32,902 nt of DNA from Chthoniobacter flavus (GTDB lineage Bacteria > Verrucomicrobiota > Verrucomicrobiia > Chthoniobacterales > Chthoniobacteraceae): NCBI GenBank assembly GCA_945861435.1, contig CAMAUX010000060.1, positions 1 to 32,902 on the forward strand. Direction: 5' to 3'. Under the pieces are notes generated by a model. The model ran no database searches. It had not been told where the DNA came from and saw nothing but the letters and a program-made list of their open reading frames with translations. Shown here piece by piece: positions 5,009-26,379 of this stretch (position 1 is the stretch's first letter; every line of letters begins with the position of its first letter). The translations under genes and the position numbers were made by a program.

Positions 5009-5746
5009 TTATTGGGCGAGAAGTTCGAGGATGGTTTGGTCGTCCTTTGTGATGGGAAGGCCCTGAGATTTGTTGTCCTCGATGCGCCAGCGAGCGAAGG
5101 CGAGGGCATCCTGTTGGCCGTCGTTAAGGAGGGTGCGGTCGGCGCCTTTGGCGAGGAGCCAGCGTGCGAAGGCGAGGTTGCCTTGGTCGATGGCGTACAT
5201 GAGGGGGGTGAAGCCGTCCGGGCCGCGAATGTTGAGTTGGTCGGGATCCAGACCGTGGATGAGGTCAGCGACTGCGGTGGCAGCGGCGGCGTCTTCGATC
5301 CATGCGACGTGCATGAGGGTGCATTCCCCCTGGGCTTGGTCCTCGGCGTTGATGCCGACGCGGGCCTGGACTCGGGCGCCGGCTTCCAGAAGGAGGCGGA
5401 TGCTTTCGAGGTTGCCGAGTTTCACGGCGAAGTGGAGGGCTTGGTAACCTGCGATGTTGCGGGCGGCGAGGTCGGGTTTGAGTGGGAGGATTGCGCGGAG
5501 GATGGCGGGGCTTTCGACGGTGCGGTGGACGAGGGTGTTTTCGGCTTCGTCGCGCCATGCGATGCCGCGGGGGTTTTGTTGTGCGTAGTAGAGGACCGCC
5601 TCGGCGTCGTTTTTGGCGACGGCATCGTCGATGGGGTCGTTGGCTGAGGGGGCGTCGGCTGTTTCGGATTCAGGGGTTGGGGAGGGGCGGCATCCCGTGG
5701 TGAGAAGGAGGAGGGGGAGGCAGCAGAGCAGGAGGAGGTGGCGCAT
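5009..5746 (-). CDS. Ankyrin-repeat lipoprotein
   Basis: A 245-residue protein when started at the ATG at 5746. It opens with a leucine-rich signal segment ending in LLLTTGC, a plausible though not ideal lipobox with Cys19 as the lipidated residue. A Pro/Ser/Glu-rich linker follows, then ankyrin-type units around residues 98-130, 140-165 and 176-209 (for example [13 protein letters not shown] and [14 protein letters not shown]). Ankyrin repeats mediate protein-protein contact; the partner is unknown. An alternative ATG at 5779 would add 11 residues (a Leu/Pro repeat) encoded by the 9-bp repeat at 5751-5777. Neither start has a recognisable ribosome binding site. It is divergent from the large kinase gene. 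Confidence 0.8.
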
Positions 5747-5750
5747 GGGC

Positions 5751-5777
5751 AAGGGCAGCAAGGGCAGCAAGGGCAGC
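5751..5777. repeat. 9-bp tandem repeat, three copies
   Basis: Three perfect copies of AAGGGCAGC sit between the two candidate starts of the ankyrin lipoprotein. Read on the minus strand they encode Leu-Pro-Leu units. They share period 9 with the arrays at 199, 27135 and 28421. Confidence 0.8.
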
Positions 5778-5910
5778 ATGGGCGTGAGGTGCGTGGTGCT
5801 TGCGGACGGGGGTGATCTTCGTGGCACGGGATGTGAAGCGCAACGATTTGCGTGGGATGGATCGGGGGGATGGATGAGTGAAGAGTTTGACGTATGGATG
5901 ATAAAGATGT

Positions 5911-5915
5911 AGGAG
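5911..5915 (+). promoter_or_regulatory. Ribosome binding site that supports a TTG start
   Basis: AGGAG ends 8 bases before the TTG at 5924. It is the reason for starting the kinase there, as no ATG or GTG with a better site occurs before the first conserved segment. Confidence 0.6.
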
Positions 5916-5923
5916 TGTGCTGA

Positions 5924-8900
5924 TTGATTGCGCCTACGCAAGCCCCTCCGAGCACGGCCCATGCAGGGCGATGGGCACATGCTGTCACAGGTGATTTTCA
6001 GTCGTTTGAACTATTGGCGCAGAGGCACTGGTATCCTGTCTACCTTTGGTGGCGGCGCAGTGGGAAGGATCCGGATGCGGCGGCCCGGTTGACACGCGCC
6101 GTTTTCTCCGCGGACGCATGGAGCGCGCTGCGGGATGCGGGGAGCGAGGGCGGCAAGCGGAGTCTGCGCAGCTGGGTCTTGGATCGGATTGAGAGGGAGC
6201 CGGCGGGGATCGATCGGGGGGGCTTTGCGGATGCCCCGGAGGAAGGCGGCGATTTTTTGCGGATCGACATCGAAATGGCGGAGGCGCGTTATCTGCGCGA
6301 GGTGAAGGGGAGTGCGGGGGAGGTGTTCGAGCGGCGTTGGTTGCTGGAATTGCTGGAGGCGGTGGGGGGGGCTTTCGAGGGGGGCGATGAATCGAGGGAT
6401 CTCGGGAGGGTGATGGGAAAGCTGGTTTCCGAGATCGTGTGTACGACGCAGCAATGGGAGGAGGAGATGTCGCTGCTGAGCCGGACGATGGATCGGTGCG
6501 GTGCGGGCAATTTCCTCGGGATGCACGGGGGGCGGGTTGGGGACGGGCGGGTGGCGTCGATGGGGGAGGCGGTCCGCTGGCGGGTGCCGACGTGGAGTGC
6601 ACCGGAGCCGGAGGAGGTGGCGGGGCTTTTTCCCGGGTACGAGGTGTTGGAATTGGCTGGGGAAGGTGGGATGGGGGCGGTGTACAAGGCGCGCCAGGTT
6701 TCGTTGCAGCGGATGGTGGCGATCAAGCTGCTGCCGTTGGAGGTGAGCGGGCACTCGGGTTTTGCGGAGCGGTTCCGGCGTGAGGCTCTGGCGCTGGCGC
6801 GTCTGCAGCATCCCAATATCGTGTCCATCTACGACAGTGGGCGCACGGAGGCGGGGCATTTATTTTATGTGATGGAATTGGTGGAGGGGGCGGAGCTGCA
6901 CGTGTTTATCCATGGAGGATTGCTCGGGCCGGTGCATGCGATGGAGATGGTGGAGCAGGTGTGTGATGCGGTGGCGTGTGCGCATGGGCAGGGGATTTTG
7001 CATCGGGACATCAAGCCGGGGAACATCTTGGTGACGCGTTCGGGTTGTCCGAAGCTGGCGGACTTCGGTCTTGCGCGTCTGGAGGAGGCACCCGAGGGGG
7101 GGCGTCGGATGACGATGGTGGGTGCGATGATGGGGACAGCCGAGTACATGGCGCCCGAGCAGAAGAGGGGAGCGGCTGCGGATGAGCGGGCGGATATTTA
7201 CGCGCTGGGTCTGGTGCTTTACGAGGCGCTCTGCGGTGAGTTGCCTGCTGGGGCCTTTCTGCCTCCGAGTCGGCGGGTGGCGGTGGATGCGCGCATCGAC
7301 GAGGTGGTGGCGCGAGCATTGGCCCAGAATCCCGGGGATCGTTTTGAGTCAGCGGCTGCGATGCGGGATGCGATCGAGGCCGCGCGGAAGCCGCAGGTGC
7401 GGGCGGAGTTGGCGGAAAGTGGAGGAGGGTGGTCGTGGTGGGTGGAGCATTGGTGGGTGGCGGCGGCGGCCTGTGTGGTGCTGGGTGGGGCTGGATGGTG
7501 GGTGGAGGGACGGATGAACGATGCGGACCGGCGCACGCGCGCGGTGGAGAGTCGGTTGGAGGAGCAGCAGCGGGGGCTGCGTTCGAGCGTGGCGCGTCTG
7601 GCGGGTTTTTATAGTGAGAGCGCGGAGGCGCGGGAGTCGATCAGTGCGGAGCAGCGTTTTGCGCGGGCCATCGACAGGCTGGCGACGAGTGAGCGGATTT
7701 CGCGTGGGGAGGTGGAGGCGCGGATGGAGGCGTTTCTGGCCTCGAGTCGTGAGGGTGGGGACAAGGCGTCGTCCTACGATCTTGCGCTGGCGGCGTTTGC
7801 GGAGCGGGATTTTTCCAAGGCGGCGTTGCTGGCTGGAAAGGCGGCATCTCTTGTGGGGAATGGGCGCACAGAGGCTGAGCGTGTGCGGTTGTTTGAGGCT
7901 GAAACGCTAGCCGGGCAGGCGGAGGTGGCGTCGCTGAACCTTGCGTCTGGTGTGGCGCATTATCGCCGGGCGTTGGAGATGCGGGACGAGGCGGCCGAGC
8001 CGGAGCTTTGGGCGGAGGCGGCGGACACGCTGCTGGGTGCGCTGGAGATTCTCTCGCTTGCGGAGGAGTCGGTGCCGCTTGCGCGCAGGGTATTGGCGTT
8101 GCGTGAGGTGCGGGATGGAGCGGAGGCGGAGACGACCCTGCGCAGTATGAATGTGCTTGGGAACTGCCTGCGGCAGAAGGGGGCGTACGCGGAGGCGCAG
8201 GAGTTGCTTGAGAAGGCGCTTGCGGTGCTGGAGAAGCGGCTTGGGGCGGAGGATCGTCAAACCTTGCAGGTGATGGCGGATCTGGCGCTTGTTCTCAAGT
8301 TGCGTGGGGATTTGGTGCATGCGGAGCCGACGGCGCGTCGCGTGTTGGAGGGGAGAAAGAAGGTGCTCGGAGCGGGGCATCCGGCGACTTTGCAGAGCAT
8401 GGACACGCTGGGCACGGTGCTGCCTTCGCTTAATCAGCGGGCGGAGGGGGAGGAGCTTTTGCGCGAGGCTCTGGCGGGGCGGGAGAAGGTTTTTGGGATG
8501 GAGCATCCGCAGACGCTGAAGTCGGTGAACAACCTTGCGAATCTGCTGCGTGGGGGGCGTCAGCTTGCCGAGGCGGAGGCGCTGCTGCGGCGGGCGCTAG
8601 CGGGTCAGGAGAAGGTGTTGGGATCGGAGCATTCGGACACGCTGTCCACGCTCAACAACCTTGGGCTGACGCTGGATTCGAAGGGGGACTGGGTGGGTGC
8701 GAAGCGTTACTTGCAGCGGGTGGTGGAGGTGATGGAGCGGGTGCAGGGGGCGGAGCATCCGGCGACTCTCTCGGCGGTGGGTAATCTGGGCGATCTGTTG
8801 CGCAAGCAGCGTGATTACGCCACGGCGGAACCGCTGTTGGTGCGCGCGCTGGAAGGGCGGGAGCGGGTGCTTGGGGAGAAGCACTCGGACACGCAGGGGA

Positions 8901-9436
8901 GCATGGTGAACCTTGGGGCGCTCTATCATGGGCGCGGCAATCTGGAGGGGGCGGAGAAGCTTTACCGGAGGGTTTTTGGATTGCAGGAGGGCGGTATGGA
9001 GAACGAGACATCCATCACGGTGGTGAGCAATCTGGGGGTGGTGCTGGCGCAGAAACGTGATTTCGACGGGGCCGAGCCGCTGCTGTTGCGCGCGAGGGAG
9101 TGGCGGGAGCGGGAGCTGGGATGGGCGCATATCGACACGGTGCGCAGCGCGCACAACCACGCGTCGACGCTCTTGGAGAAGGGCGATTTTGAGGGGGCGG
9201 AGAATGTTTATCGGGCGGCGCTCAAACGGATGATTCCGGTATTGGGTTCGGAGCACCGGGAATCGGCGCTTGTGTCGCTGCGGTTGGCGAAGTTGCTTGC
9301 CGACAATGGGCGTGCGGCGGAGGCGCGTCCGCTGGCGCAGCAGTCGCTTGCGGTGATGGAACGGCTGCTCGGCGCGCAGCATCCGCAGACGCGGGAGGCG
9401 AGGGAGCTTGTGGAGCGAGTGGGTGTCGAGAGCTGA
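5924..9436 (+). CDS. Sigma-like domain / Ser-Thr kinase / TPR fusion protein
   Basis: A 1170-residue protein. Residues about 15-200 resemble the ECF-type sigma factors common in planctomycetes and verrucomicrobia: HWYPVYLWWRRSGKDPDAAARL is region-2-like, and an ERRWLLELLEAV helix follows, but no recognisable region-4 HTH is left. A complete Hanks kinase domain follows (about 235-495): glycine loop GEGGMG at 246-251, Lys268 in VAIK, HRD at 360-362, DFG at 380-382 and APE at 410-412, so it should be active. A membrane segment lies near 509-530. The outside part has a short coiled region, then about ten 42-residue TPR units of the kinesin-light-chain type (repeated GxEHPxTL). It starts at TTG with AGGAG upstream. 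It probably phosphorylates cytoplasmic targets in response to contacts made by the TPR tail; ligand and targets are unknown. Confidence 0.88.
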   Translation: MIAPTQAPPSTAHAGRWAHAVTGDFQSFELLAQRHWYPVYLWWRRSGKDPDAAARLTRAVFSADAWSALRDAGSEGGKRSLRSWVLDRIEREPAGIDRGGFADAPEEGGDFLRIDIEMAEARYLREVKGSAGEVFERRWLLELLEAVGGAFEGGDESRDLGRVMGKLVSEIVCTTQQWEEEMSLLSRTMDRCGAGNFLGMHGGRVGDGRVASMGEAVRWRVPTWSAPEPEEVAGLFPGYEVLELAGEGGMGAVYKARQVSLQRMVAIKLLPLEVSGHSGFAERFRREALALARLQHPNIVSIYDSGRTEAGHLFYVMELVEGAELHVFIHGGLLGPVHAMEMVEQVCDAVACAHGQGILHRDIKPGNILVTRSGCPKLADFGLARLEEAPEGGRRMTMVGAMMGTAEYMAPEQKRGAAADERADIYALGLVLYEALCGELPAGAFLPPSRRVAVDARIDEVVARALAQNPGDRFESAAAMRDAIEAARKPQVRAELAESGGGWSWWVEHWWVAAAACVVLGGAGWWVEGRMNDADRRTRAVESRLEEQQRGLRSSVARLAGFYSESAEARESISAEQRFARAIDRLATSERISRGEVEARMEAFLASSREGGDKASSYDLALAAFAERDFSKAALLAGKAASLVGNGRTEAERVRLFEAETLAGQAEVASLNLASGVAHYRRALEMRDEAAEPELWAEAADTLLGALEILSLAEESVPLARRVLALREVRDGAEAETTLRSMNVLGNCLRQKGAYAEAQELLEKALAVLEKRLGAEDRQTLQVMADLALVLKLRGDLVHAEPTARRVLEGRKKVLGAGHPATLQSMDTLGTVLPSLNQRAEGEELLREALAGREKVFGMEHPQTLKSVNNLANLLRGGRQLAEAEALLRRALAGQEKVLGSEHSDTLSTLNNLGLTLDSKGDWVGAKRYLQRVVEVMERVQGAEHPATLSAVGNLGDLLRKQRDYATAEPLLVRALEGRERVLGEKHSDTQGSMVNLGALYHGRGNLEGAEKLYRRVFGLQEGGMENETSITVVSNLGVVLAQKRDFDGAEPLLLRAREWRERELGWAHIDTVRSAHNHASTLLEKGDFEGAENVYRAALKRMIPVLGSEHRESALVSLRLAKLLADNGRAAEARPLAQQSLAVMERLLGAQHPQTREARELVERVGVES

Positions 9437-12309: not shown

Positions 12310-15141
12310 TTACTTGGCCGGTGTTGTGGGAGTGGTGTGGCTGGCGAGTTCGCGTCCCGTGGCGGGATCCCAGAGTCTGAGGAGGCCGGTTTCGCCGCCT
12401 GCTGCGACGAGGGTGCCGGAGCGTGCGGAAGCGGCTGCGTGGAGGAATTCGGAGCGTTTGGTGAGTGAGCGCGCCTCGGTGCCGTCTTCGTTGAGGATCC
12501 GTGCCTGTTGGTCGCCGGAGGTGGTGAGGAACTGTGCGGTGGCGCCGATGAACTGGAGGGCGGTGACTTCCTTCTCCCATGTGGTGATCTTTTTGCGGCG
12601 TTCGCCGGAAGCCGTGTCCCAGACATTGACGGAGCCGTCGGCGCCGGCTGTGGCGAGGACGCGTGCATCGGCACGGAAGCTCACGCTGAGCACGTGGTGG
12701 GTGTGGGCTTCCATGGTGTGAACGGGGCGACCGGAAGCCACTTCGGTGATGCGGGCGAGTTTGTCTGCGCCGCCGGATGCGAGCCAGCGGCCGTCCGGTG
12801 AGAAATCCAGACAGAGGACGGCATCGCGGTGGCGTTCGGTCCATGATTGGACGAGGCGGCCTGTGGCCGGGTCCCAGAGATGAATGTCCCCGGAGCGCGA
12901 GAGTTCGCCGCCGCCGGTGGCGAGGAGGCTGCCGTCTGGGCTGAAGCAGAGCGCGGCGATGCGGTCGGTGAGCGGGGAGTTTCCGGACGGGGATCCGAGC
13001 ACGCGTTCGAGGTGCCATTTGCCCGGGGGTTGAGGATTGAGGCGTTCTCCCGCGGAGGTGAAGGCGAGCCATCCTTGGGCGGACGAGTGGAGGAGGGTCG
13101 CATGCGCGGCGGCGGTGGGGGCGGTGATTGATGCGGTGCAGCGTGCGGATGCCGTGTTCCAGAGGGTGACGCGGCCTTGTGCAGACACGGCGGCGAGGGT
13201 GTCGCCGGAGAATGCGAGGGCGGTGATGGGCTGCGTGGTGGATGCGGCGGTTGCGGCTGGTGCGGGCGTTGCTGGAGTTTTCGGAGATGCGGTTGCGAGT
13301 TCCTTGCGCAGTTGAGCGGCGGCGTTGGCGGCGGCTGTTTGAGCTTGTTGGGCGGCGTTCTGTGCGGCTTCGGTTTCCTTTCGCGACTGGGCGTTGCGGG
13401 TGCGCGCGGTCTCGGCTCTGCGGAGGTTTTCCTCGCCGTCGCGAAGGGCGTTGCGTGCGGCGTTGAGGGCGGCTTCAGCGGATTTTTCTGTGGTGAGTGT
13501 GCTCTCCAGTTTGGAGGCGGCGTCTTTGCGTTTTTGTAGAAGCGGTGCGGGATCTTCTGTGGAAGCGGCGAGCTCGGTGGTGGTCTTTTCGGCTTGGGCG
13601 CGGGCTTCGGTGGCGGTGGCGAGTGCTTTCTCCTTATCCGGGAGGCCCTTGGTGGCGGCGGCCATGGCGTCGGTGGTTTTTTTGGTGAGGTTGTCGAGGT
13701 CCTTGGTTTCGGTCTCGAGCTTTGCGAGTTGGGCTTTGTGGAAGGCGACATCGAGGCCTGCGCGGCTGGCATCCCAGTCGAGTGAGGAGAGTTTGCGGAA
13801 TGTGTCGGGATCACCGCGCAGTTCGAGGAGGGATTTGGAGGTGGCGAGATCGAGGATGCGCAGAGCGCCGTCGTTGCAGGCGACAGCGAGGCGGGTGCCA
13901 TCCGGTGAAAGGCTCACGATGCCGGGGCCGGGCGCTGGGAGTTGGCGTGCGGGTGTGCCGGGTTTGGAGGAGAGGATGCGCACCGTGTTGTCCGCGCAGG
14001 AGGTGATCCACTGGTCGGTGGAAGAACCCGCGATGAGGCAGCGGATGGGGGCCGGGGATTTGACGATGAGTGGCTGCGCAGGCGCGGGTTGCGGCGTGAC
14101 GGGCCACACGCGGAGGGTCTGTCCCTCCTGCGCGACGGCGAGTTGGGTGTTGTCGCGGCTCCATGCGAGTGCGTTGAGCGGCGGGGTGTTCTCCCAAAAA
14201 GTGTCGGTGCCGTTTCCGCGAAGCGGGGTGATGCGGACTTTGCCGTCCTCAAAGCCGATGGCGGCCCATGCTCCGTCCGGCGAGGCGGCGAGCAGATGGG
14301 CGGCGGGTTCGAGGTGTTCGATGAGGACACGCTGGATGCGGCCTTCGAGTGGATCGCGCAGCACCAGTGCGCCAGCCTCTGTGATCGCGAGGAGGGCGGA
14401 CGCTTCGGGAAGCGCGGCGGTGACGCGATCGGAGGCGAGACATTCAAGGGAGCGGACGGTGGGCTGGGGTTGCTCGTAGTTCCAGATCTGGACGGTGCGG
14501 AAGCTGCCGGCAGCAAGGCGATGGCCGTCGGGGCTGAAGGCGAGGGACTGGATGGCGGCGGGGTTGGTTTTTGGATCGTGGAGTTCGATGGGCGGGGCTT
14601 GGGAGTCGGGTTGGTGGAGGAAGATGCGGTCGCCGCGGGCGCAGGCTGCGAGGGAGGCATCGGCGTTGAGTGCGACGGCGTAGATGGGGCGCGTGCCTTT
14701 GGGGAGAGGCTTCCACGCGACTTCGCGAGATTGTTTGACGGAGTTTTTTGCGCCGGTGTCGATCCATGCGGCGAGGCGCGCGAGCTCGGCGGGGTTGAGT
14801 CGGACTGCGCCCGCCTTGTTCTTGGGCGGTGGCATTGCGGGATCGCCCGTGTGCGCGGCGGATTGGAAGAGGAGACTGTCCGCGCTTTTGCCAGGGATGA
14901 GGCCCGGGCCGGAGTCGCCGCCCTTGAGAATGGAGGCGGGGGTTTCGAGGTTGAGGCCGGCTTTGGTGGTGGTTTTGTTGTGGCAGGAGATGCAGTTGGC
15001 TTCGAGGGAGGGGAAGACGTCGCGGTAGAAATCGGGGGCGGGGGGGCTGGAGGCTGCGGGGGTGGCGGCAGAGGTGGTGGGGAGTACGAGTAGGAGGAGG
15101 AGTGGGAGTACGAGTAAGAGTGGGGGGATGGGGGGCTTCAC
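12310..15141 (-). CDS. Cytochrome c (PSCyt1-type) / coiled coil / WD40 protein (module 2)
   Basis: A 943-residue exported protein. Residues 1-25 are a leucine-rich signal peptide. A PSCyt1-like cytochrome c domain follows with haem motif CISCH at 50-54 and a PAMPPP segment whose Met is a likely axial ligand. WD40 repeats occupy about residues 140-460. An alanine- and glutamate-rich coiled coil spans about 465-615, and a second WD40 block runs from about 640 to the end (LCFSPDGSLLATGGG, LDFSPDGRWLASGGADK, VSFRADARVLATAGADG). The coiled coil splits the propeller repeats and is absent from the module 1 paralogue. The GTG start overlaps the preceding PPC-protein stop by four bases. A role in periplasmic electron transfer or as a scaffold is inferred from domains only. 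Confidence 0.88.
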   Translation of the reverse strand: MKPPIPPLLLVLPLLLLLVLPTTSAATPAASSPPAPDFYRDVFPSLEANCISCHNKTTTKAGLNLETPASILKGGDSGPGLIPGKSADSLLFQSAAHTGDPAMPPPKNKAGAVRLNPAELARLAAWIDTGAKNSVKQSREVAWKPLPKGTRPIYAVALNADASLAACARGDRIFLHQPDSQAPPIELHDPKTNPAAIQSLAFSPDGHRLAAGSFRTVQIWNYEQPQPTVRSLECLASDRVTAALPEASALLAITEAGALVLRDPLEGRIQRVLIEHLEPAAHLLAASPDGAWAAIGFEDGKVRITPLRGNGTDTFWENTPPLNALAWSRDNTQLAVAQEGQTLRVWPVTPQPAPAQPLIVKSPAPIRCLIAGSSTDQWITSCADNTVRILSSKPGTPARQLPAPGPGIVSLSPDGTRLAVACNDGALRILDLATSKSLLELRGDPDTFRKLSSLDWDASRAGLDVAFHKAQLAKLETETKDLDNLTKKTTDAMAAATKGLPDKEKALATATEARAQAEKTTTELAASTEDPAPLLQKRKDAASKLESTLTTEKSAEAALNAARNALRDGEENLRRAETARTRNAQSRKETEAAQNAAQQAQTAAANAAAQLRKELATASPKTPATPAPAATAASTTQPITALAFSGDTLAAVSAQGRVTLWNTASARCTASITAPTAAAHATLLHSSAQGWLAFTSAGERLNPQPPGKWHLERVLGSPSGNSPLTDRIAALCFSPDGSLLATGGGELSRSGDIHLWDPATGRLVQSWTERHRDAVLCLDFSPDGRWLASGGADKLARITEVASGRPVHTMEAHTHHVLSVSFRADARVLATAGADGSVNVWDTASGERRKKITTWEKEVTALQFIGATAQFLTTSGDQQARILNEDGTEARSLTKRSEFLHAAASARSGTLVAAGGETGLLRLWDPATGRELASHTTPTTPAK

Positions 15142-17225
15142 TTTGTTGGGGGGGGTAGGACGCGGAAGCGGATGGGCTCGGAGACGACGATGTCGACGGT
15201 GTCGGCGGGGGGCTTGGTTTTGCCGGAGGTGGTGTCGGCGGTGGGGGCTGCGGGGGCGGTGGCGAGGGACGGGGCGGAGGGGTACTTGCTGACGACGCCT
15301 CCGTGCATGGCGAAGGAGTAGTCGCCCGGAGCGAGTTTCAACGTGGCGAGGTCGAGGAGAAGGTCGGTGGAATCGGCCTTGGCAGGGACTTCGATGGGTT
15401 TGAGGGCGGCGAGGTCTGTGCCCAGAGGCTTGAGTTTGATGGCGCCTCCGGAGAATTCGCCGCGCCATGTGAGCTTGAGCGGGATGGTGAGTTTGTCGGT
15501 GGGGCCGGCTTCCCAGACGCGGGTCTCGGCGGGAGCGATGGTGAGGGGGGCGACCTCGGCGGCACCGGTGGAGACAGGGAAGTCGGCCATGAGGCGCGGG
15601 ACGGGAGTTTCCGAGCTGGCATCGCGGATGGGCCAGATCATGGAGGCGACGGGGCATTCGTGTGTGACATCGGTGCCGTTGATGGAGGCGTGTCCGCGGA
15701 TGCGTGCGAGGGCGAGGGAACGCGGGGCGTCCTCGGCGGCGGTGAGGAGGAGGGAGCCGGTGGATTTTCCAGGGGGGATGCGGAGTCCGGTGGCGGTGAT
15801 GCCTTTGGGGAGATCGTTCATGGAGAGTTGGATCTCGCCGTCAAAGCCGTCGCGGCGGATGGCGACGACATCGAAGGCCATGGTGGCGCCGCTGCGCAGG
15901 GCGACGGGTTTGGAGAGAGCGGCGCGGTCGCCATTGCGCAGTTCCATGTGGAGGGCCCACGCGACGAGGGTGAAATCGGGCGCGGCTTTGCGAAGGATGA
16001 GGGAGTAGGTGTGGCGTGGTTCGGCGCGTGTGCCGCCGAAGAGGTCGCGGATCTGGAGGTGGTAGGTGCCGTCCTCGGGGATCTGGAGTTTGCCGAGAGG
16101 GTCGGCGGATCCAGCATCGTAGGGCGGTCCGTCGTAGGCGTAGCCGTTGGAGGAGAGTTTGACGGGGCTTGCGATGTCGTTGAATTCGGCGATGTCGAGG
16201 AGGGAGTCGCGATCGTTTTCGCGCACGACGCGTTGGACGACGATGAAGGGGTCGGTGGGATGGCCGGCGCGTTCGGAGACGGCTTCGACCCACCAGACCT
16301 CGCCCTTGTGGGCTTGGAATTCAAAGGTGTCGACGTCCGCGGCAGTGGCGAAGGCGCCTGTGACGGTGCATGGGAGCTGGATCTTCTGCGGTTGTGCGTG
16401 GGTGTCGTTGGGTTCGGCTTCCGCGATGTGCGTGGCCGGTGTCTGGGCCGCGGAGGGGAGTGATGCGGCGCCGACGCTGCGCACGGAGGGGTGCGGCGGT
16501 GGATACGGGCCGTCCCCCACATCGTGGATGGCGAGGCGGTAGAAGTTCTCGGGTCCGCCTTGGAAGGTGAGGCCATGGACCTTGAGGATGTAGGTGCCGT
16601 CCTCCGGTGCGCGGAAGTCGAGGAGGCCGGTGCGTCGGTTGACGGCGAGGTCGCGGCCTGCGGAGTCTGCGACGATGAGGACGGGGGTGAGCTTGGACTC
16701 GATGCCGGCGGCGATGCATTCGAGCAGGAGATGCTGCGAGCGGGTGGCGTGGATTTTATAGAAATCGACGGCCTTGGCGGTGGTGGTGGCGTTGCAGAGG
16801 GAGTTGACGGGAAGTTCGAACGCGGACTCCAGAGTGGTGTTGGGTTTGGCGCGGGTGACCTCTGGGAGAATGCCGACGGAGAAGGCGCGCGCGGAGGAGA
16901 TGCCGAGGCGAGTCATGAGCCTCGCGTCGAAGATGCCGGGCTCGGTGTCCGGGGCGATGGTGACGAGGAAGCGGAGCTTCTCGGGTTCGCCCTTGTCGTT
17001 GGTTTTCTGTTGGGCGGTGAGTTTTGGGGAGGAGAAGAGGAGTTGGAGTTCGCCTTCGAGTGCTTCGCCGGTGATGGCGACCTCGACGGTGGTGCCGGCC
17101 TTTGCACCCATGGGCATGAGGGTGAGGAGACGCGGGGAGGGGAGGGCGACGGATTGCGCGCGTGCCGGCTGCGGGAGAGGCAGGAGCGAGGCGAGGAGGA
17201 GGAGGGCGGCTGCGAGGATGCGCAT
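15138..17225 (-). CDS. PPC-domain exported protein (module 2)
   Basis: A 695-residue protein with a clear signal peptide ending in ARAQS near residue 24. An early Ig-like region is followed by PPC (pre-peptidase C-terminal) type beta-sandwich domains. One shows the typical EAEPNDTHAQPQ motif near 269-280, then VDTFEF and GEVWWVEAVSERAG. A further DGTYHLQIRDLFGG segment marks another PPC-like unit. PPC domains usually aid secretion or binding; no enzyme domain is seen. Its start is 14 bp downstream of the DUF1549/DUF1553 gene and its end overlaps the cytochrome/WD40 gene, so all three should be co-translated. The C-terminal 60 residues are Pro/Thr/Ala-rich with a final short strand. Confidence 0.8.
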   Translation of the reverse strand: MRILAAALLLLASLLPLPQPARAQSVALPSPRLLTLMPMGAKAGTTVEVAITGEALEGELQLLFSSPKLTAQQKTNDKGEPEKLRFLVTIAPDTEPGIFDARLMTRLGISSARAFSVGILPEVTRAKPNTTLESAFELPVNSLCNATTTAKAVDFYKIHATRSQHLLLECIAAGIESKLTPVLIVADSAGRDLAVNRRTGLLDFRAPEDGTYILKVHGLTFQGGPENFYRLAIHDVGDGPYPPPHPSVRSVGAASLPSAAQTPATHIAEAEPNDTHAQPQKIQLPCTVTGAFATAADVDTFEFQAHKGEVWWVEAVSERAGHPTDPFIVVQRVVRENDRDSLLDIAEFNDIASPVKLSSNGYAYDGPPYDAGSADPLGKLQIPEDGTYHLQIRDLFGGTRAEPRHTYSLILRKAAPDFTLVAWALHMELRNGDRAALSKPVALRSGATMAFDVVAIRRDGFDGEIQLSMNDLPKGITATGLRIPPGKSTGSLLLTAAEDAPRSLALARIRGHASINGTDVTHECPVASMIWPIRDASSETPVPRLMADFPVSTGAAEVAPLTIAPAETRVWEAGPTDKLTIPLKLTWRGEFSGGAIKLKPLGTDLAALKPIEVPAKADSTDLLLDLATLKLAPGDYSFAMHGGVVSKYPSAPSLATAPAAPTADTTSGKTKPPADTVDIVVSEPIRFRVLPPPTK

Positions 17226-17239
17226 GGGGTGTGCGGAGT

Positions 17240-19438
17240 TCAGTGGTTGAAGAGGAATTCCTTCGTGTTGATGAGTGCCCAGAGGAGGTCTTCGAGGCCC
17301 TGACGCTTGGAGGCGGCGGGATCGAGGGGTTCGCCCTTGGCGTTTTTGCGAGGCTTGTCGAGGTGCGCCTGAGCGGTGGCGAGTTCGTCTCCGGTGGGTT
17401 GTCTGCAGAAGGCGAGGGAGTAGAGGGTGCGCAGTTTTTCGGAATCCGGAGCGGTGGACTTGGCGAGTTGATCGGCGCGTGCGCCCGCCTTGGAGAGCTT
17501 GGATTTGAGATCGGCGGCGTTCATGAGGTGGAGGCTTTGGCCGAGGCTTGGGGCTTGGATGCGTTCGCATTCGCAGGCGCTCTCGGCTTCCGGGCGGCCG
17601 AAGATGGTGAGGAAGGGGGAGGCCTTGTTGTAGCTGTTGTCGGGGAGAGCGACGGCGCGTGTGCCTTGGGGGAGGTCGGCGAAGTCGGTGGGAGCGGCGG
17701 TGAGTTGGTCGACGGCGTCGAGGAGGACTTCGGCGTTGAGGCGGCGCGGGTAGTAGTGGGAGAAGTTCTGGCGGTCGGCGGCGTTGTGGGCGTTGGGGGC
17801 GGAGCTGAGTTGGTAGGCGTTGGAGGTGGTGATGGCGCGGATGAGGGCCTTGAGGTCGAAGCCGCTTTGGGTGAAGTGACGCGCGAGGGCGTCGAGCAGT
17901 TCGGGGTTTGAGGGCGGGTTGGAGTCGCGGAGGTCGTCCTCTGGTTCGACCAAGCCGCGTCCGAGGAAGTGCTTCCAGTAACGGTTGGCGAGCGCGCGTG
18001 CGAAGAAGGGGTTGGCGGAGTCGCTCATCCATGAGGCGAGGCGCAGGCGCGGGTCTTCGTCGGCGGCGATGTCCATGGTGCCGGAGCCGAGGCCGGCGGG
18101 GCGGATTTTTTCGTGGGTCTTTTTGTTTTCGGCTTCTGCGATGCCGCGTTTGTGGAAGATGAGGCTCTGGCCTGCGGTGGCGGTGGGTCGGCGGCCGATC
18201 TGGCTGAAGAAAGCGGCGAGGCCGTGGTAATCGCGCTGACTCCAGCGCTCGAAGGGATGGTGATGGCATTGTGCGCAGGCCATGCGGACGCCGAGGAAAA
18301 GCTGGGCGACATCCTCGAGTTGCTGCTCGGGGGTTTTGACTTGGTTGTACCAGGCGACGGGCGGGTTGCTGACAGGATCACCCGTGGCGGCGAGGAGTTC
18401 GCGCACGAGTTGATCGTAGGGTTTGTTGGCGAGGAGGCCGTCGCGCACCCAGGAGTGGAAGGCGAAGCTGGCCTTGGTTCCTTTGTCGATGCGCTTGTTG
18501 CGGAGGATGGCGGCCCATTTGTTGGCGAAGAAGTCGGCGTACTCAGGGCGCGTGAGGAGGGAGTCGACGAGTTTGTCGCGCTTGTCGGCGGCGGTGTTGG
18601 AGAGGAATGCGTCGGTCTCGTCGGCAGTGGGAATGCGGCCTGTGATGTCGAGCGCTGCGCGGCGCAGGAAGGCGGCGTCGTCGCAGACCGGGGAGGGCGG
18701 GATGCCGAGGGTGCGCAGGTTGGAGAAGACGAGGTTGTCTACGAAGTTGCGGGGAGCGGGAAGTTCGCCGAGGGGGGCGCCGAGTGGGAGCGCGGCGGAG
18801 GCGACGGAGACGAGGCCTTGGTAGCGGACCATGACGGAGACATTGCCCGGGAGGTCGTGGAAGTGGATGAGACCGTTTTCATCGGCCTCGGCCATGCTCT
18901 TGTCGTTGGGTTCGAAGACGGCGGTGCGTGTGACGTCGCGGGAAGTGCCGTCGGAGAATTTTGCGAGGACGCGGAGTTGGAGGGTGGATTTTGTGGGGCG
19001 TGTGCTGCGTGCGGGTTCGACTGCGAGTGCGGTGAGTTTTGGTGCGTCGTCCGCGTCGGCGGGCGTGCCGCTGGCGATCCAGTCCATGAGGATCTTGTAG
19101 CCCTCGGAATCGGGCGCGAGGCGGCGGCCTCCGCCGTGGGGCGTTTGGTTGCTGGCTTTCAGGAGGAGGAGGCTTTGTTCCGGAGCCTCCGGGGTGATGC
19201 GACGACCGCGGCCTTCCTTGACGATGTGTTCGTAGTCTTCCTGCGGTTCGAATCCGAAGAGGGAAAGGCGGAATCCGTTCTGACCGTTGCCGGCTTTGGC
19301 GTGGCAGCCACCGGTGTTGCAGCCGGCCTTGGTGAGGACGGGCGCGACGTCGTTGATAAAACTGGGAGCAGCGACCGCGGTCCCTTGGAGGCAGAGGACG
19401 GCGAGGGCGATGAGGGCCGTGGAGAGTGTGGGCCGCAT
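17240..19438 (-). CDS. DUF1549/DUF1553 protein with N-terminal cytochrome-like motif (module 2)
   Basis: A 732-residue protein with a signal peptide (cleavage after AVAA near residue 24). Near the N-terminus it has a CNTGGCH motif (Cys40, Cys45, His46; CX4CH spacing). An Ig-like (BIG2-type) stretch follows around 138-220, then DUF1549 at about 230-440 containing a standard CAQCH haem motif at 388-392 followed by HHPFERWS. DUF1553 fills the C-terminal part (ANRYWKHFLGRGLVEPEDDLRDSNPPSNP, NAEVLLDAVDQLT, CECERIQAPS) and ends with the usual LINTKEFLFNH. If both Cys motifs bind haem it is a dihaem periplasmic protein. Its biochemical role is unknown. It starts the second module, 56 bp after the first. 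Confidence 0.9.
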   Translation of the reverse strand: MRPTLSTALIALAVLCLQGTAVAAPSFINDVAPVLTKAGCNTGGCHAKAGNGQNGFRLSLFGFEPQEDYEHIVKEGRGRRITPEAPEQSLLLLKASNQTPHGGGRRLAPDSEGYKILMDWIASGTPADADDAPKLTALAVEPARSTRPTKSTLQLRVLAKFSDGTSRDVTRTAVFEPNDKSMAEADENGLIHFHDLPGNVSVMVRYQGLVSVASAALPLGAPLGELPAPRNFVDNLVFSNLRTLGIPPSPVCDDAAFLRRAALDITGRIPTADETDAFLSNTAADKRDKLVDSLLTRPEYADFFANKWAAILRNKRIDKGTKASFAFHSWVRDGLLANKPYDQLVRELLAATGDPVSNPPVAWYNQVKTPEQQLEDVAQLFLGVRMACAQCHHHPFERWSQRDYHGLAAFFSQIGRRPTATAGQSLIFHKRGIAEAENKKTHEKIRPAGLGSGTMDIAADEDPRLRLASWMSDSANPFFARALANRYWKHFLGRGLVEPEDDLRDSNPPSNPELLDALARHFTQSGFDLKALIRAITTSNAYQLSSAPNAHNAADRQNFSHYYPRRLNAEVLLDAVDQLTAAPTDFADLPQGTRAVALPDNSYNKASPFLTIFGRPEAESACECERIQAPSLGQSLHLMNAADLKSKLSKAGARADQLAKSTAPDSEKLRTLYSLAFCRQPTGDELATAQAHLDKPRKNAKGEPLDPAASKRQGLEDLLWALINTKEFLFNH

Positions 19439-19494
19439 GGGGTGTGTGAAGATGATCGTCCGGGGATCGAGGTTCTTAGGGCGATGCGAGTGGT

Positions 19495-20898
19495 TCAGCG
19501 GGGTTCGATGGCGAGGGGTTTGCCGTCGTTGGTCCAGCCAAAGAGGCGGCCGTCGGCGGAGCCCGCGAGGATCTGGGAGCCGTCGGGGGAGATGGCGACG
19601 CATTGGAAGACGGCGTCGGTTTTTGGAAGGGCGCGCATTTTGGGCGGTGGGGCGCTCTGTGCGCCGTCGTGTTTTAGGATTTCGGAGAAGAAGGCGCCGT
19701 CGCCGAAGTCGCTGACGGCGGCGAGTTGTTTGCCGTCGGCGGACCATGCGAGTGCGGGGTAGACGTGGCGTTTGTCGCCGAGGGCGGCATCCTGTTCGCG
19801 GCTGTCGCGGTCCCAGACCTTGAGTTCGCGGTCTGCGCCGCTGGTGGCGAGGCGGGAGGAGGCGGGGTCGAAGACGACGCTGAGGACGTGGTTGGTGTGG
19901 CCTTCGTAGACGGCGGCGAGTGTGTCGGTGGCGGTGTCCCATCGGCGCGCGAGCTTGTCGCCACCGGCGGTTGCGAGCCATTTGCCATCGGGAGAGAGGG
20001 CCATGGCGTAGAGGGAGTCTTCGTGGGCCTTCCACGTTTTTGCGATCTGACGCGAAGGCCACGCGATGCGGTGGACGAAGCCGCCGCGGGTGGCGAGGGA
20101 GTCGGCGATCCAGAGGCCGTCGCCGCTTTTGGTCCAGACGAGGGCGGTGACATCGCCGGCGATGCCTTCGGTGATTTCTGCTGCGAGGGATCCGTCGGCA
20201 GGGTTCCAGAAGCGCACGCGCCGGAAGCCGCCGGACGCGAGCGTGGAGGCGTCGGGCCTCCATGCGAGTGAGGAGACGGGCTCGCGGTGGGCGTCGATGG
20301 TGGAGAGGAGCGGGAGTTTTGGAGCTTTGGCATCGAGGAGTTCGATGCGTGCGCCGCGGGTCATGGCGATGCGTGAGCCGTCCGGGGAGAAGGCGAGCGC
20401 AAGCGCTGGGGCGACGCCTTCTGGAAGGGCTTGGAGTTCCACCGGGGTGGTTTTTGGCGGGCGCTCCATGACGGCGGGATCCCATGGTGCGCCGGCCTCC
20501 ACCCATGTTTTCACCTGGGCGATCTGGGTCGCGGTGAGGTTTTTCTTGGGCGGCATGTGCGGGTCTGCATCTGGAGCGAGCACGGTGAGCAGGAGGCTTT
20601 CCGCGGGTTTCTGCGGATCGAGTGCGGGGCCGGATTCGCCTCCTGCGCGGAGGGCTTCCGCGGTGTGGAGTTTGAGGCCGCCCTTGGATTTTCCGGGGCG
20701 GTGGCAGGAGACGCATTCGTCGCGGAGGATCTCCTGTGCTGGGTTTGCGGGCGCTGGTGAGGCTGCGGTTTCCTGGCTGTGTGCGTGGATGCAGAGTGCT
20801 GCGAGGGTGGCGATGGATGCGAGCGACGCCAGTGCAGCGGCGCGGCTACGGACCATGCCCATGCCCATGCTGCTGCGTTTGCGGACGGGCGTGCTCAT
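19495..20898 (-). CDS. Cytochrome c (PSCyt1-type) / WD40 protein (module 1)
   Basis: A 467-residue protein with a signal segment (about residues 20-42), then a PSCyt1-type cytochrome c domain with haem motif CVSCH at 62-66 and a PHMPPKKN segment giving a likely axial Met. WD40 repeats fill about residues 165-467 (LAFSPDGSRIAMTRG, SLAWRPDASTLASGG, MALSPDGKWLATAGGDK, SVVFDPASSRLATSGADR), enough for one propeller. It is half the length of its module 2 counterpart and lacks the coiled coil. The ATG overlaps the preceding PPC-protein stop by four bases (ATGA). An alternative start at the internal Met-Gly-Met run would shorten the signal region by about ten residues. Confidence 0.88.
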   Translation of the reverse strand: MSTPVRKRSSMGMGMVRSRAAALASLASIATLAALCIHAHSQETAASPAPANPAQEILRDECVSCHRPGKSKGGLKLHTAEALRAGGESGPALDPQKPAESLLLTVLAPDADPHMPPKKNLTATQIAQVKTWVEAGAPWDPAVMERPPKTTPVELQALPEGVAPALALAFSPDGSRIAMTRGARIELLDAKAPKLPLLSTIDAHREPVSSLAWRPDASTLASGGFRRVRFWNPADGSLAAEITEGIAGDVTALVWTKSGDGLWIADSLATRGGFVHRIAWPSRQIAKTWKAHEDSLYAMALSPDGKWLATAGGDKLARRWDTATDTLAAVYEGHTNHVLSVVFDPASSRLATSGADRELKVWDRDSREQDAALGDKRHVYPALAWSADGKQLAAVSDFGDGAFFSEILKHDGAQSAPPPKMRALPKTDAVFQCVAISPDGSQILAGSADGRLFGWTNDGKPLAIEPR

Positions 20899-22565
20899 TT
20901 GCCCTTCTTCTTTTCCGGAACTGGCGGGGTGCCGGCAGGGACGGTGTTGAGCCAGAGATCGTCGGCGCGGTCGGATTGGGAATGGCCGCGCTGGGTGTCT
21001 GCGCGCAGGGAATAGGCGGAGCCGGTGAAGACGGGGGGTGTGGCCTTGGTCCACGCGGCGACCCAGATGCGTGCGGTTGCCGGAGGCGCGTTGGTGGCGG
21101 CGTGGAGGGTGATGTCGATGTCGCCGCCTTTTTCGGGCACGGCGACTTCGGGCGCCCACACGCCCTCGGGCAAGCCGCTCACGCGGAGGACGAGTGGTTC
21201 CTTGAAGCCGTTGGCGAAGACGGCCTTGGCTTTGAGCACGATGGTTTTGCCGGCCTCGATGCGGGCGGGTTTTCCATCGGAGAGCTGGAGATCCAGTGTG
21301 GGAGGGGGTTCGGCGATCTCGAGGACATACTCGGCATCCGGCCCGCCGCGGGAGAAGAGGTCGGCGACGGTGAGCTTGTAATCACCGTCGGCCGGGGCGG
21401 TCCATGTGAGGGTGGGTTCGGTGAAAATGTCGGAGGGGTTCTCGTTGGCGGCGAGCCGGGTGCCTTCTGCGTTGAGGATTGCGAGGTTGCCTTCGACGCC
21501 GAGGCCGATGCTGCGGGACCAGAAGCGGGCGCGCAGTTTGGCCCCCTTCTTCATCGCGATTTGGAAGGCGGCGGTGGTGCCCGGTTTCTCGAGGCGGCCG
21601 GCGAGGACGATGGGTGGGGTGATCTTGAAAGGAGCTTCGGTGCTGGATTGCGGGGCGACGAGGACCGGGAAGGCGGCGCGCACGACGTCGATGGGGAAGG
21701 GGGCGTTGGGGAGTGCGAGGGTGGCGCGTTCTCCGTTGCCTCTGAGCTGTGCGGCGGTGATCTCGGCTTTGTTTTCCTTGAGACCGACTCCGTGCAGTTC
21801 GATTGGCAGCGGGCCGGTGGGCGGGATGGCGGCGGGGAAGATGCGGGTGACGGCGGGTCCCTCGGTGATGGCGAGGAGATAGGCTTGTTTGCTGCCGGTG
21901 AAGCCGACGTCGGCTGCGGGTGGATGGGCGAACCCTGCGATCTGCACGATGTGGAGGCCGTCGGATTCGGGCGTGAAGACGAGTGCGGGATCGAGGTTGG
22001 GGCCGTCGCTTGCGGTGGCGAGTTTGACGCCGCGCGGGTCGAGGATTTGGAGGTGGAGATCGACGGTGCTACCCAGCGCGTAGGCATCGGCCTTGATCGA
22101 GACGGGAACGCCTTTGTGCAAAGGGATGGCGAAGCCGTCGATGTCGCCGGCTTTGTCGAGCTGTCCATGGATCCATGCGGGCAGCGAGGGCACGGGCTGC
22201 GGCTGGGCGAGGGCGTCGTTGGGTTCTTTTTCTGCGAGGAGCGGGAGGGTGCCGATGGCGAAGCGCAGGGGTGCGGAGACGCCTTCCTCGCTGAGGATGC
22301 GCAAGAGATGCAGGCCGGGAGCGGCGTGGTTTGCGATGGTGAGGGTGGTTTTGCCGGACTTGTCGGGAGGGGAGAAGACGATGGCCGGGTCATCGCACCA
22401 GATGCGGACGCCGGCGGCCTCGAGTTTTCCGGAGAGTTTGACTTCGATGGCGGCCCCTGGGGCGGCGGCGTAGGGGGCGATGGCGGTGAGTTCCGGCGGA
22501 GCACCGGCTGCCATGGAGGCGGCGGTGCAGAGGGCGAGGAATTGGGCGGCGCAGGGCCGCGTCAT
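20895..22565 (-). CDS. PPC-domain exported protein (module 1)
   Basis: A 556-residue protein with a short signal peptide (cleavage near AAGAP, residue 21). Early Ig-like strands are followed by a PPC-type domain with AEKEPNDALAQPQ near residue 111 and a GDIDGFAI segment. A second similar unit has GNLAILNAEG, TWTAPADGDYKLTVADLF and GGPDAEYVLEI. The tail is lysine-rich. It is the counterpart of the longer module 2 PPC protein, and the same overlap couples it to the cytochrome/WD40 gene downstream. Its start also overlaps the DUF1501 stop by four bases. No catalytic motif is visible; a binding or structural role is inferred. Confidence 0.8.
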   Translation of the reverse strand: MTRPCAAQFLALCTAASMAAGAPPELTAIAPYAAAPGAAIEVKLSGKLEAAGVRIWCDDPAIVFSPPDKSGKTTLTIANHAAPGLHLLRILSEEGVSAPLRFAIGTLPLLAEKEPNDALAQPQPVPSLPAWIHGQLDKAGDIDGFAIPLHKGVPVSIKADAYALGSTVDLHLQILDPRGVKLATASDGPNLDPALVFTPESDGLHIVQIAGFAHPPAADVGFTGSKQAYLLAITEGPAVTRIFPAAIPPTGPLPIELHGVGLKENKAEITAAQLRGNGERATLALPNAPFPIDVVRAAFPVLVAPQSSTEAPFKITPPIVLAGRLEKPGTTAAFQIAMKKGAKLRARFWSRSIGLGVEGNLAILNAEGTRLAANENPSDIFTEPTLTWTAPADGDYKLTVADLFSRGGPDAEYVLEIAEPPPTLDLQLSDGKPARIEAGKTIVLKAKAVFANGFKEPLVLRVSGLPEGVWAPEVAVPEKGGDIDITLHAATNAPPATARIWVAAWTKATPPVFTGSAYSLRADTQRGHSQSDRADDLWLNTVPAGTPPVPEKKKGK

Positions 22566-23899
22566 GCGAAGAGTTCCTTGATGAGCTTGCCGCCGTTGAT
22601 GAGCTGGACGGGTCTGCCGCCTGGAGCGTGGAGGACTTGGTGGGGGTCGATGCCGAGTTTGGTGTAGACGGAGGAGGCGAAGTCCTCCGGTGAGTAGACG
22701 TTGTCGGAGGCGTAGTAGCCCTTGGGATCGGTGGCGCCGACGATGATGCCGCCGGGGATGCCGGCGCCCGCCATGAACACGGACATGGCGCCGGGCCAGT
22801 GATCGCGGCCGGCGTCTTTGTTGACCTTCGGGGTGCGGCCGAATTCGCCGAGGCAGAGGACGAGGGTGGAATCGAGCATGCCGCGTTGTTCGAGGTCGTT
22901 GAGGAGGCCGGAGAGTCCCTGGTCGAGACGATCGGCGGTGCCGTCCTTGAAGGTTTTGAAGATGCCGCGGTGATGATCCCATCCGCCCCATTGGGCGACG
23001 CTGAAGGAGACGCCGACTTCTGCGAGGCGGCGTGCGAGCAGGAGGCGCTGGCCGAAGTCGTTGCGGCCATAGCTATCGCGCACGGAGTCGGGTTCCTTGG
23101 AGAGATCGAAGGCGGCCTGTGCCTTTTCAGAAGAGAGGAGGCTGAGGCCCTGCTGATAAGATTGATCGAAGCCTGTGAGCGGGTCTTCGGCGATGGACTC
23201 CTGGATGCGTTCCATGCGGTCGAGCGAGGAGCGCAGGGCAAGGCGCGAGTGTGCGCGGCCTTCGCTGATGTCGGCGGGGAGGGTGACATCGCGCACGCGG
23301 AATCCTGCTTGGTTGGGATCGCCGCCGATGACGAAGGGTGCGTGCTGGGAGCCGAGGAAATGGGGGCCGCCGGAGCGGGACATGGAGGGGAGGGAGACAT
23401 AGGCGGGGACGCCGCCGCGCACGCCGCGTTCCTTGGAGACGACGGAGCCCATGGAGGGATGGAAGCTGACGAAGGCGCCGCAGCCTACGGGGACCGGGGT
23501 GGGGGCGCCGGTCATGAGGTAATGATTGCCGCCGCCGTGGTTGGGATCCTTGTGACAGATGGAGCGGACGACGGCGAATTTGTGGGCGTTCTTTGCGAGG
23601 CGCGGGAGCATTTCGCAGAAGTGGACGCCGGGGACGGAGGTGGGGATGGATTTGAACTCGCCGCGGATGTCGGCGGGCGCGTCGGGTTTGGGGTCGAAGG
23701 TTTCGTAATGGGAGGGGCCGCCATCCAGCCAGATGAGGATGCAGTTGGTGGCCTTGGCTTTTGGGGAGGCGATGCCGGAGCGTGCGGCGAGTGCGCGTTG
23801 TTGGAGGAGTTGGGTGAAGCTGAGGCCTCCGAGTGCGCCGAAGCCGAGTTGGAGAAAGCTGCGTCGTCCGATGCCGTTGCAGTTGAGCGGGGGTCGCAT
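22562..23899 (-). CDS. DUF1501 protein (module 1)
   Basis: A 445-residue protein with a canonical twin-arginine signal (GRRSFLQLGFGALGGL). The DUF1501 core is clear: CILIWLDGGPSHYETFDPKP, KFAVVRSICHKDPNHGGGNHYLMTG, SYGRNDFGQRLLLARRLAEVGV, WDHHRGIF, LVLCLGEFGRTPKVN, AGRDHWPGAMSVFMAG. The clustered His and Asp residues resemble metal sites of the alkaline-phosphatase-like superfamily. It starts five bases after the DUF1549/DUF1553 stop and ends in a four-base overlap with the PPC gene, so expression should be coordinated. Compared with the module 2 paralogue it lacks an insert before the GRDHW segment and sits second rather than last in its module. Confidence 0.9.
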   Translation of the reverse strand: MRPPLNCNGIGRRSFLQLGFGALGGLSFTQLLQQRALAARSGIASPKAKATNCILIWLDGGPSHYETFDPKPDAPADIRGEFKSIPTSVPGVHFCEMLPRLAKNAHKFAVVRSICHKDPNHGGGNHYLMTGAPTPVPVGCGAFVSFHPSMGSVVSKERGVRGGVPAYVSLPSMSRSGGPHFLGSQHAPFVIGGDPNQAGFRVRDVTLPADISEGRAHSRLALRSSLDRMERIQESIAEDPLTGFDQSYQQGLSLLSSEKAQAAFDLSKEPDSVRDSYGRNDFGQRLLLARRLAEVGVSFSVAQWGGWDHHRGIFKTFKDGTADRLDQGLSGLLNDLEQRGMLDSTLVLCLGEFGRTPKVNKDAGRDHWPGAMSVFMAGAGIPGGIIVGATDPKGYYASDNVYSPEDFASSVYTKLGIDPHQVLHAPGGRPVQLINGGKLIKELFA

Positions 23900-23904
23900 G
23901 GGGA

Positions 23905-26130: not shown

Positions 26131-26379
26131 TGCGAGGGGAGTAAAGGCGATTGTGGTAAAAAGGCACGGGTTTGCAACCACAATGACGGTCGTTGTCCGG
26201 AAGGCGGCGGGAGGGCTGCGCGTGTCGAGGGCACGGTTCGCCCGGCGGTTTTCGGGGAGGCGGGCAGACACCGTTCGGTGGGGGTTCCACCGATGGGGTG
26301 TGCGCCTGTTGTGGGAGTGGGACATGGCCCACCACCGTGGAGCGGCCCGGCTTCGATGAAGGAGGGAAGGAGGAAGGCT
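26131..26379. other. Divergent intergenic region between the eight-gene cluster and the sigma gene
   Basis: This 249-bp stretch should hold promoters for both directions. No consensus -35/-10 pair was recognised; ECF promoters usually have an AAC-type -35, which cannot be assigned confidently here. The minus-strand frame is open across much of it. Confidence 0.45.
26367..26373 (+). promoter_or_regulatory. Strong ribosome binding site of the ECF sigma gene
   Basis: AAGGAGG lies six bases before the ATG at 26380 and decides that start over the ATG at 26356. Confidence 0.8.

Follow-up and report, generated by a model that had tools for sequence, protein, structure and literature searches.

A sigma-like gene fusion in Chthoniobacter flavus

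The window, i.e., the whole stretch of 32,902 nucleotides of Chthoniobacter flavus DNA analyzed here (contig CAMAUX010000060.1), carries on its forward strand one gene in which a sigma-like domain, a Hanks-type Ser/Thr kinase and an array of tetratricopeptide repeats (TPR) follow each other in a single chain (Table 1). A first-pass annotation of this DNA had placed a sigma-like domain ahead of a complete kinase with TPR, and the layout was borne out both by profile–profile comparison and by Pfam matches to kinase and TPR families. The N-terminal domain is homologous to region 2 of sigma factors of the extracytoplasmic function (ECF) type, its motifs are degenerate, and fused as well as split versions of it occur in related genomes. 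The reading we favor, to which we give about even credence, is that the protein is a Hanks-type kinase in which an N-terminal pseudo-sigma domain would dock on, or control, the kinase.

The open reading frame (ORF), located at 5924–9436 (+) as first described, begins with a TTG codon immediately 3' of a stop codon. This start is supported by the AGGAG motif eight nucleotides upstream, by the opening residues of the protein (APTQAPPS), similar in the alignment to the beginning of the relative L033, and by a codon-position composition like that of the neighboring genes. On these grounds a wrong start codon was ruled out, and with it the alternative, raised in the first-pass annotation, of translation starting just before the kinase domain.

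The kinase domain contains VAIK, HRDIKPGN, DFG and APE, so that the catalytic lysine and the HRD and DFG motifs are all in place; the Pfam kinase model aligned at positions 1–197 of 263 only, with a similar extent (196–202 of 263) in fused relatives. The gene had also been described as a transmembrane kinase with a TPR tail. The TPR array stands, but the window's transmembrane segment is weak, the hydrophobic stretch around residues 502–529 being Trp-rich with a Kyte–Doolittle value of 1.28. A clear post-kinase transmembrane segment (Kyte–Doolittle ≥1.6) was found in six of the seven other fused or edge-cut relatives, and the window kinase is probably membrane-anchored. Extracytoplasmic input through the TPR part, a proposal that depends on the weak predicted segment, is plausible. 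The C-terminal part varies between fusions, as the fused relatives L034 and L041 have C-termini with weak leucine-rich-repeat matches and no TPR match.

Table 1. Features of the fusion gene, with positions in the window and residue numbers of the encoded protein
Feature	Position	Strand	Evidence
AGGAG, likely ribosome-binding site, 8 nucleotides 5' of the TTG start	5911..5915	+	Read in the sequence
Whole gene, sigma-like/kinase/TPR fusion, 1170 residues, TTG start	5924..9436	+	ORF list, sequence, Pfam
Degenerate sigma region 2 and class block AExRYxxE..FERRW, residues 1–149	5924..6370	+	A1 profile match 3–149; model against AlgU (residues 14–133) and sigma-E (15–102)
Site of 55 missing profile positions (LRxEY segment and region-4 helix-turn-helix), 7 residues left	6371..6391	+	A1 gap between 141 and 197; tblastn
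Kept tail, 3' of region 4 in relatives, residues 157–188	6392..6487	+	Second A1 match 157–233; alignment
Linker, like the leader of unfused kinases, residues 189–235	6488..6628	+	Alignment; A1 profile
Hanks-type Ser/Thr kinase domain, residues 236–500	6629..7423	+	Pfam Pkinase E 1.3e-43, best stretch 239–442; motifs
Candidate transmembrane segment, weak, residues 502–529	7427..7510	+	Kyte–Doolittle; clear segments in relatives
TPR array, residues about 740–1156	8141..9391	+	Pfam TPR families; TPR_10 in 10 stretches, E 1.3e-72; ends from TPR_8 (740) and NF040586 (1156)

Sigma ancestry of the N-terminal domain

A profile of 13 degenerate domains, window included (A1), was compared with a profile of six canonical sigma factors (A2). 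The hhalign comparison returned a probability of 100 and an expectation value (E) of 7.6e-46, marking the domain as homologous to sigma region 2; the profile–profile search proposed in the first-pass annotation was thus clearly significant. By this similarity, the N-terminal ~188 residues descend from an ECF-type sigma factor.

The single sequence of residues 1–235, searched against 57 related genomes, gave matches at E 0.001 in 26 of them, a count that includes the own genome. Outside the latter, the top four matches are fused proteins, with E between 3.8e-19 and 6.9e-15 and L003 at the top (39%), and most of the weaker ones are free-standing proteins of about 230–350 residues—both degenerate and canonical, the latter including L008 (E 1.2e-12) and L010 (E 1.5e-10). 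A second match in the own genome, L002 (E 0.126), was set aside as an unrelated protein apparently hit by chance. Against Pfam, NCBIfam and the sequences of the PDB, residues 1–235 retrieved nothing significant (the best sigma model being NF009166, E 0.029); no significant sigma family was found for seven degenerate relatives in NCBIfam and Pfam (best E 0.013), nor anything significant for profile A1 among PDB sequences. Two of the three canonical proteins scanned lie above the cut-offs of Sigma70_r2 (Pfam) and TIGR02937, and the third, L051, lies below.

A structure was also predicted for residues 1–235, as suggested at the outset, with a predicted local distance difference test (pLDDT) of 75.8 and a predicted template-modeling score (pTM) of 0.74. 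Plain Foldseek gave no match to this model at E 0.001 or better. Among 496 chains aligned to it, the best were AlgU (Z 8.0 over 91 residues) and sigma-E of E. coli (Z 6.5 over 82), followed by a chain at 3.7—a result in line with the proposed ancestry, Z values of this order being supportive and no more in the case of a helical domain.

Decay of sigma motifs and loss of region 4

Motifs were tallied in one alignment of 52 rows, comprising 38 canonical sigma factors (those within fetched loci, a subset of all canonical matches), five other fused proteins, eight split ones and the window. The DxxD motif of region 2.2 contacts the beta-prime subunit of RNA polymerase, according to two reports (PMC8999054, PMC13147305). 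Its second place holds D or E in 38/38 canonical rows, in 0/5 of the other fused and in 0/8 of the split ones, and the Q or H three places further on has exactly the same distribution; the window has R at both. Read as a whole, the polymerase-contact motif DxxDxxQ is A-A-A-R..R in the window, and the degenerate relatives are acidic at the second place in 0/13 cases and at the first in 6/13, all of them split. Eight of these 13 relatives carry Glu or Asp where the canonical proteins have Gln or His. The K/R and the R of KRGG (region 2.4), each present in 36/38 canonical rows, fall into gaps in all five fused and all eight split proteins and are A-P in the window; the mean net charge of this segment is +2.9 in canonical, -1.0 in other fused and -0.75 in split rows, and -4 in the window. 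The tryptophan of ERRW/FxRRW is kept in 52/52 rows, and the surrounding block, AExRYxxEP..FxRRWALxxLE, in canonical and degenerate copies alike.

Region 4 had been annotated as unrecognizable and replaced by a linker. It is indeed absent, over 55 profile positions, but it was lost rather than replaced, for its tail and a separate linker are still recognizable. Profile A1 aligned with the window only at positions 3–141 and 197–266, with seven protein residues between, and the missing positions 142–196 comprise the LRxEY segment and the helix-turn-helix. When 12 relatives were compared by tblastn with positions 6201–6800 of the window, no match to region 4 appeared in another frame of the + strand; an antisense match (residues 160–195 of L036, E 0.026) was weak and was taken as chance. 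Region 4 is shortened in L041, and the window copy is the only one to lack it entirely. By the motif tallies, decay has begun in, or is common to, the unfused copies and has gone furthest in the fused ones. The first-pass annotation had not foreseen this pattern, in which the unfused copies already show a large share of the motif decay and complete loss of region 4 is confined to the window copy.

These motifs also bear on whether the sigma-like part could still act in transcription. One way would be a phosphorylation switch as in group ECF43, in which the kinase, here part of the same chain, would phosphorylate region 2.2 and so make up for the missing negative charge, with polymerase binding restored. 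In PMC8999054, PMC13147305 and PMC8103513, the mark of ECF43 is a decayed DxxD in a sigma factor next to, or fused with, a Ser/Thr kinase; a Thr two places past the second D place occurs in 12/13 degenerate relatives and in the window, and the first acidic place is kept in 6/8 split copies. However, the ECF43 Thr, as given in that literature, lies inside the motif (QTTA; STTA in EcfP), as does a Ser in ECF59/60, whereas the four DxxD places of the degenerate relatives hold Thr in 1/13 (L033) and Ser in 0/13, and those of the window hold neither. The K-R pair, moreover, is gone in all, and the window has no region 4. As Thr or Ser is missing inside the motif, and the nearby Thr—which may be structural—is common to 25/38 canonical rows, an ECF43-like switch is less likely for the window, and we regard it as unlikely.

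Another way would be a membrane-held regulator whose sigma-like part has kept its binding to polymerase or DNA and becomes free or exposed upon a signal. Proteolytic release of a sigma factor from a fused membrane regulator is described for IutY in PMC8999054, a helix-turn-helix-like segment is kept in most relatives, and some acidic residues are left in region 2.2 of split copies. Yet the second DxxD place, the Gln/His and the K-R pair are lost in every aligned degenerate copy, the window lacks region 4 besides, and such a regulator seems to us quite unlikely.

Fused and split copies in related genomes

A gene fusion had been invoked to explain how the sigma factor became a kinase domain, and the fusion of the sigma-like part with the kinase was seen in 7/40 genomes of the same family searched (window, L032, L033, L034, L035, L041 and L125). 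Its conservation in related genomes, which the first-pass annotation had proposed to survey, extends to six further genomes of the family, although a contig edge truncates the L125 fusion; another locus that lies at a contig edge, L126, starts with the same linker. The other three genomes of the window's genus showed no such fusion. In eight fetched loci (L036–L040, L047, L048 and L127), the degenerate protein is encoded by a separate gene 5' of the same type of kinase. The split sigma-like gene of L043 (502–1231, genome G033) lies in two overlapping frames, due either to a frameshift in the draft assembly or to a real break. In the alignment, the leader with which the unfused kinases start corresponds to the linker in the fused proteins, so that two neighboring genes were probably joined by the fusion. 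The sigma-like part can also be absent: two genes of genome G008, L123 (1155–4259, -) and L124 (3316–6837, +), encode kinases of this type, the leader being similar, and have no sigma-like match in the fetched stretch.

Canonical sigma factors of this class are, as previously stated, often encoded beside kinases. A kinase was found in the stretch in 9/10 canonical loci, a count restricted to loci fetched by sigma, most other loci having been picked by kinase; the one without a kinase in the stretch is L046, the kinase of L045 is 1.5 kb away, and that of L090 is on the other strand. The canonical profile gave at least 124 matches across 113 genomes from the class, with at most the 23 best candidates scored per genome (a number reached in genome G263). 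The matching frames do not exceed 409 residues except for three (449, 560 and 635 residues), and none of these three has a kinase in frame with the sigma factor. At E 1e-55, the degenerate profile was found in 11/213 genomes of the order, all of the same family, in 4/335 genomes of a wider draw from the class, again of that family, and in 0/337 genomes of the phylum, a draw that held no positive control. Scoring in these three surveys covered no more than the top 12, 7 and 7 candidates of each genome, and the window's own gene fails the cut-off, so that copies devoid of region 4 could be missed.

In the window's genome (96% complete), no other sigma factor of the same class was found, nor any match to the canonical profile at E 1e-30; there are 34 Sigma70_r2 matches of other classes, 32 of them above the cut-off. 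This bears on a further idea of the first-pass annotation, namely a decoy that would titrate away an anti-sigma factor or the clamp of RNA polymerase. Sigma mimicry as such is known from PhyR, NepR and EcfG, as PMC8999054 and PMC8103513 relate. A decoy for a sister sigma factor is unlikely because the genome yielded no second member of the class; in addition, part of the polymerase-contact motif is gone, and the 20 window ORFs scanned (of 115) contained no anti-sigma family. Overall, we consider a decoy very unlikely.

Phylogeny and selection

In a tree of 52 sigma domains, made without L043 (broken frame) and L125 (cut), the 14 degenerate domains are separated from the 38 canonical ones with support of 100/100, and the window falls among the fused rows (93/68). 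The kinase tree comprises 58 rows and was made without L043, L089, L090, L092, L142 and the second kinases of L141 and L144. On this tree the fused label requires at least three changes on the starred branches, and the window kinase part has a long end branch (0.82).

Selection was estimated as the ratio of nonsynonymous to synonymous substitution rates (dN/dS, Nei–Gojobori). For the one close fused pair, L034/L035, the ratio is 0.045 over codons 1–145, which span region 2 together with the FxRRW block, 0.152 over codons 146–225, 0.20 in the linker and 0.105 in the kinase. In four split comparisons, which overlap in rows and are not independent, the sigma-like protein lies at 0.10–0.23 and the first part of the kinase at 0.03–0.16; a canonical pair gave 0.20. 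Judged by these ratios, the sigma-like domain is under purifying selection and kept for function in these relatives.

The same data speak to whether the N-terminal domain of the window copy is a relic, i.e., a decaying passenger of the kinase. The loss of region 4, the very long branch of the domain and the fact that the genus shows no such fusion elsewhere (three other genomes) all fit a relic. A frame that stays open across 235 residues with coding-like codon positions, the retention of class block and linker, the selection seen in a fused relative and the end branch of the kinase part, which is also long, do not, and a relic appears rather improbable to us.

A pseudo-sigma domain as a proposed docking module

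We return to the favored reading, a kinase with a docking or controlling pseudo-sigma domain. In a more specific form, which we put forward tentatively and at less than even credence, a sub-family of sigma factors left transcription and came to serve a receptor kinase as its domain for docking or switching, the pair collapsed into one chain, and the window copy was trimmed to the surface in contact with the kinase. The ancestral sigma factor would have touched its neighboring kinase and, stepwise, lost its role in transcription (contacts with polymerase and DNA) while retaining that with the kinase. Fusion would then fix the pairing of sigma factor and kinase, making region 4 dispensable. The pseudo-sigma part would serve as an N-terminal docking or regulatory module, acting in cis (by auto-inhibition, dimerization or activation) or by substrate presentation, with input received by the C-terminal TPR part. 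If the ancestor touched the kinase, the loss of polymerase and DNA contacts with one block retained would leave such a module, and the block AExRYxxEP..FxRRWALxxLE is the candidate contact surface.

Several observations weigh against this proposal. The two-domain model (pLDDT 62, pTM 0.49) is too poor for an interface; a structure search with it returned kinases only. Motif loss is incomplete in the split copies: acidic residues occupy the first DxxD place in 28/38 canonical, 0/5 fused and still 6/8 split rows (A in the window), and an acidic residue stands in place of Gln/His in 3/5 fused and 5/8 split rows. Because this loss is incomplete, some polymerase contact may remain in unfused copies. 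Apart from L041, the relatives retain a region-4-like segment, in full or in part, in the alignment. The sigma-like part of the window sits on a very long branch (2.79) with no close relative for measuring selection, for which reason it could be decaying. In three of the four split comparisons, the kinase is more constrained than the sigma-like protein. Finally, the kinase tree places the window beside L124, a kinase without sigma (84/32), and not with the other fusions. As the window is not placed with confidence and the fused label changes repeatedly, several fusions, or fusion followed by re-splitting, are possible from the tree, which does not support a single fusion event.

Neighboring genes in the window

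An ankyrin-repeat protein is encoded at 5012–5980 (-), divergently to the kinase; the longest ORF for this protein extends across the start of the kinase gene, and an internal lipoprotein-like segment suggests that its real start lies further in. A planctomycete-type cluster occupies 12313–26325 (-), with a WD40 protein containing PSCyt1, two PSCyt2/PSD1 proteins, a DUF1501 protein and PPC-domain matches. Beside it, at about 26536–27081 (+), the last part of a longer open frame (start at 24760) encodes an ECF sigma factor that belongs to another class, with matches to Sigma70_r2 and r4_2.

Comparison with known systems

There are known sigma factors with a Ser/Thr kinase encoded next to them, a few of which are phosphorylated directly by that kinase. 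The pairs of group ECF43 act in this manner, according to PMC8999054, PMC13147305 and PMC8103513. As portrayed there, ECF43 and its Hanks kinases (EcfP/PknT of Vibrio, EcfK/PknS of Xanthomonas) share with the window a sigma gene beside a Ser/Thr kinase and a degraded DxxD in region 2.2; the window differs in being one chain, in having no Thr inside the motif and in the loss of both the K-R pair of region 2.4 and region 4. The free-standing ECF-type sigma factors beside kinases are direct homologs of the window domain with the same FxRRWA block and mostly a kinase nearby (9/10); unlike the window, the canonical ones keep DxxD, Gln/His and KRGG and are separate genes.

Other systems resemble the window in architecture. 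PhyR, likened here by its description in the literature and not by sequence, also joins a sigma-like domain without sigma function to another signaling module, but this module is a receiver domain rather than a kinase, and its partner, NepR, is known. In planctomycetes (Gemmataceae, Tuwongella), ECF sigma factors fused to WD40 likewise place an ECF domain in a multidomain protein; in the excerpts of PMC11032199 and PMC8567305, the described architecture has no kinase and the sigma factor is not stated to be degenerate. Among the literature matches listed, no title or abstract opening describes a fusion of a sigma factor with a Ser/Thr kinase; we do not claim absence from print.

The pairing of sigma factor and kinase is therefore already known, and the window presents a variant of it, as a fusion with a degenerate sigma factor. 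A sub-family that loses its polymerase and DNA contacts with one block conserved points to a surface that may serve the kinase, and the coexistence of split and fused versions allows a direct test of this kinase-contact surface. If the proposal is true, a transcription factor would have been recycled as a kinase domain.

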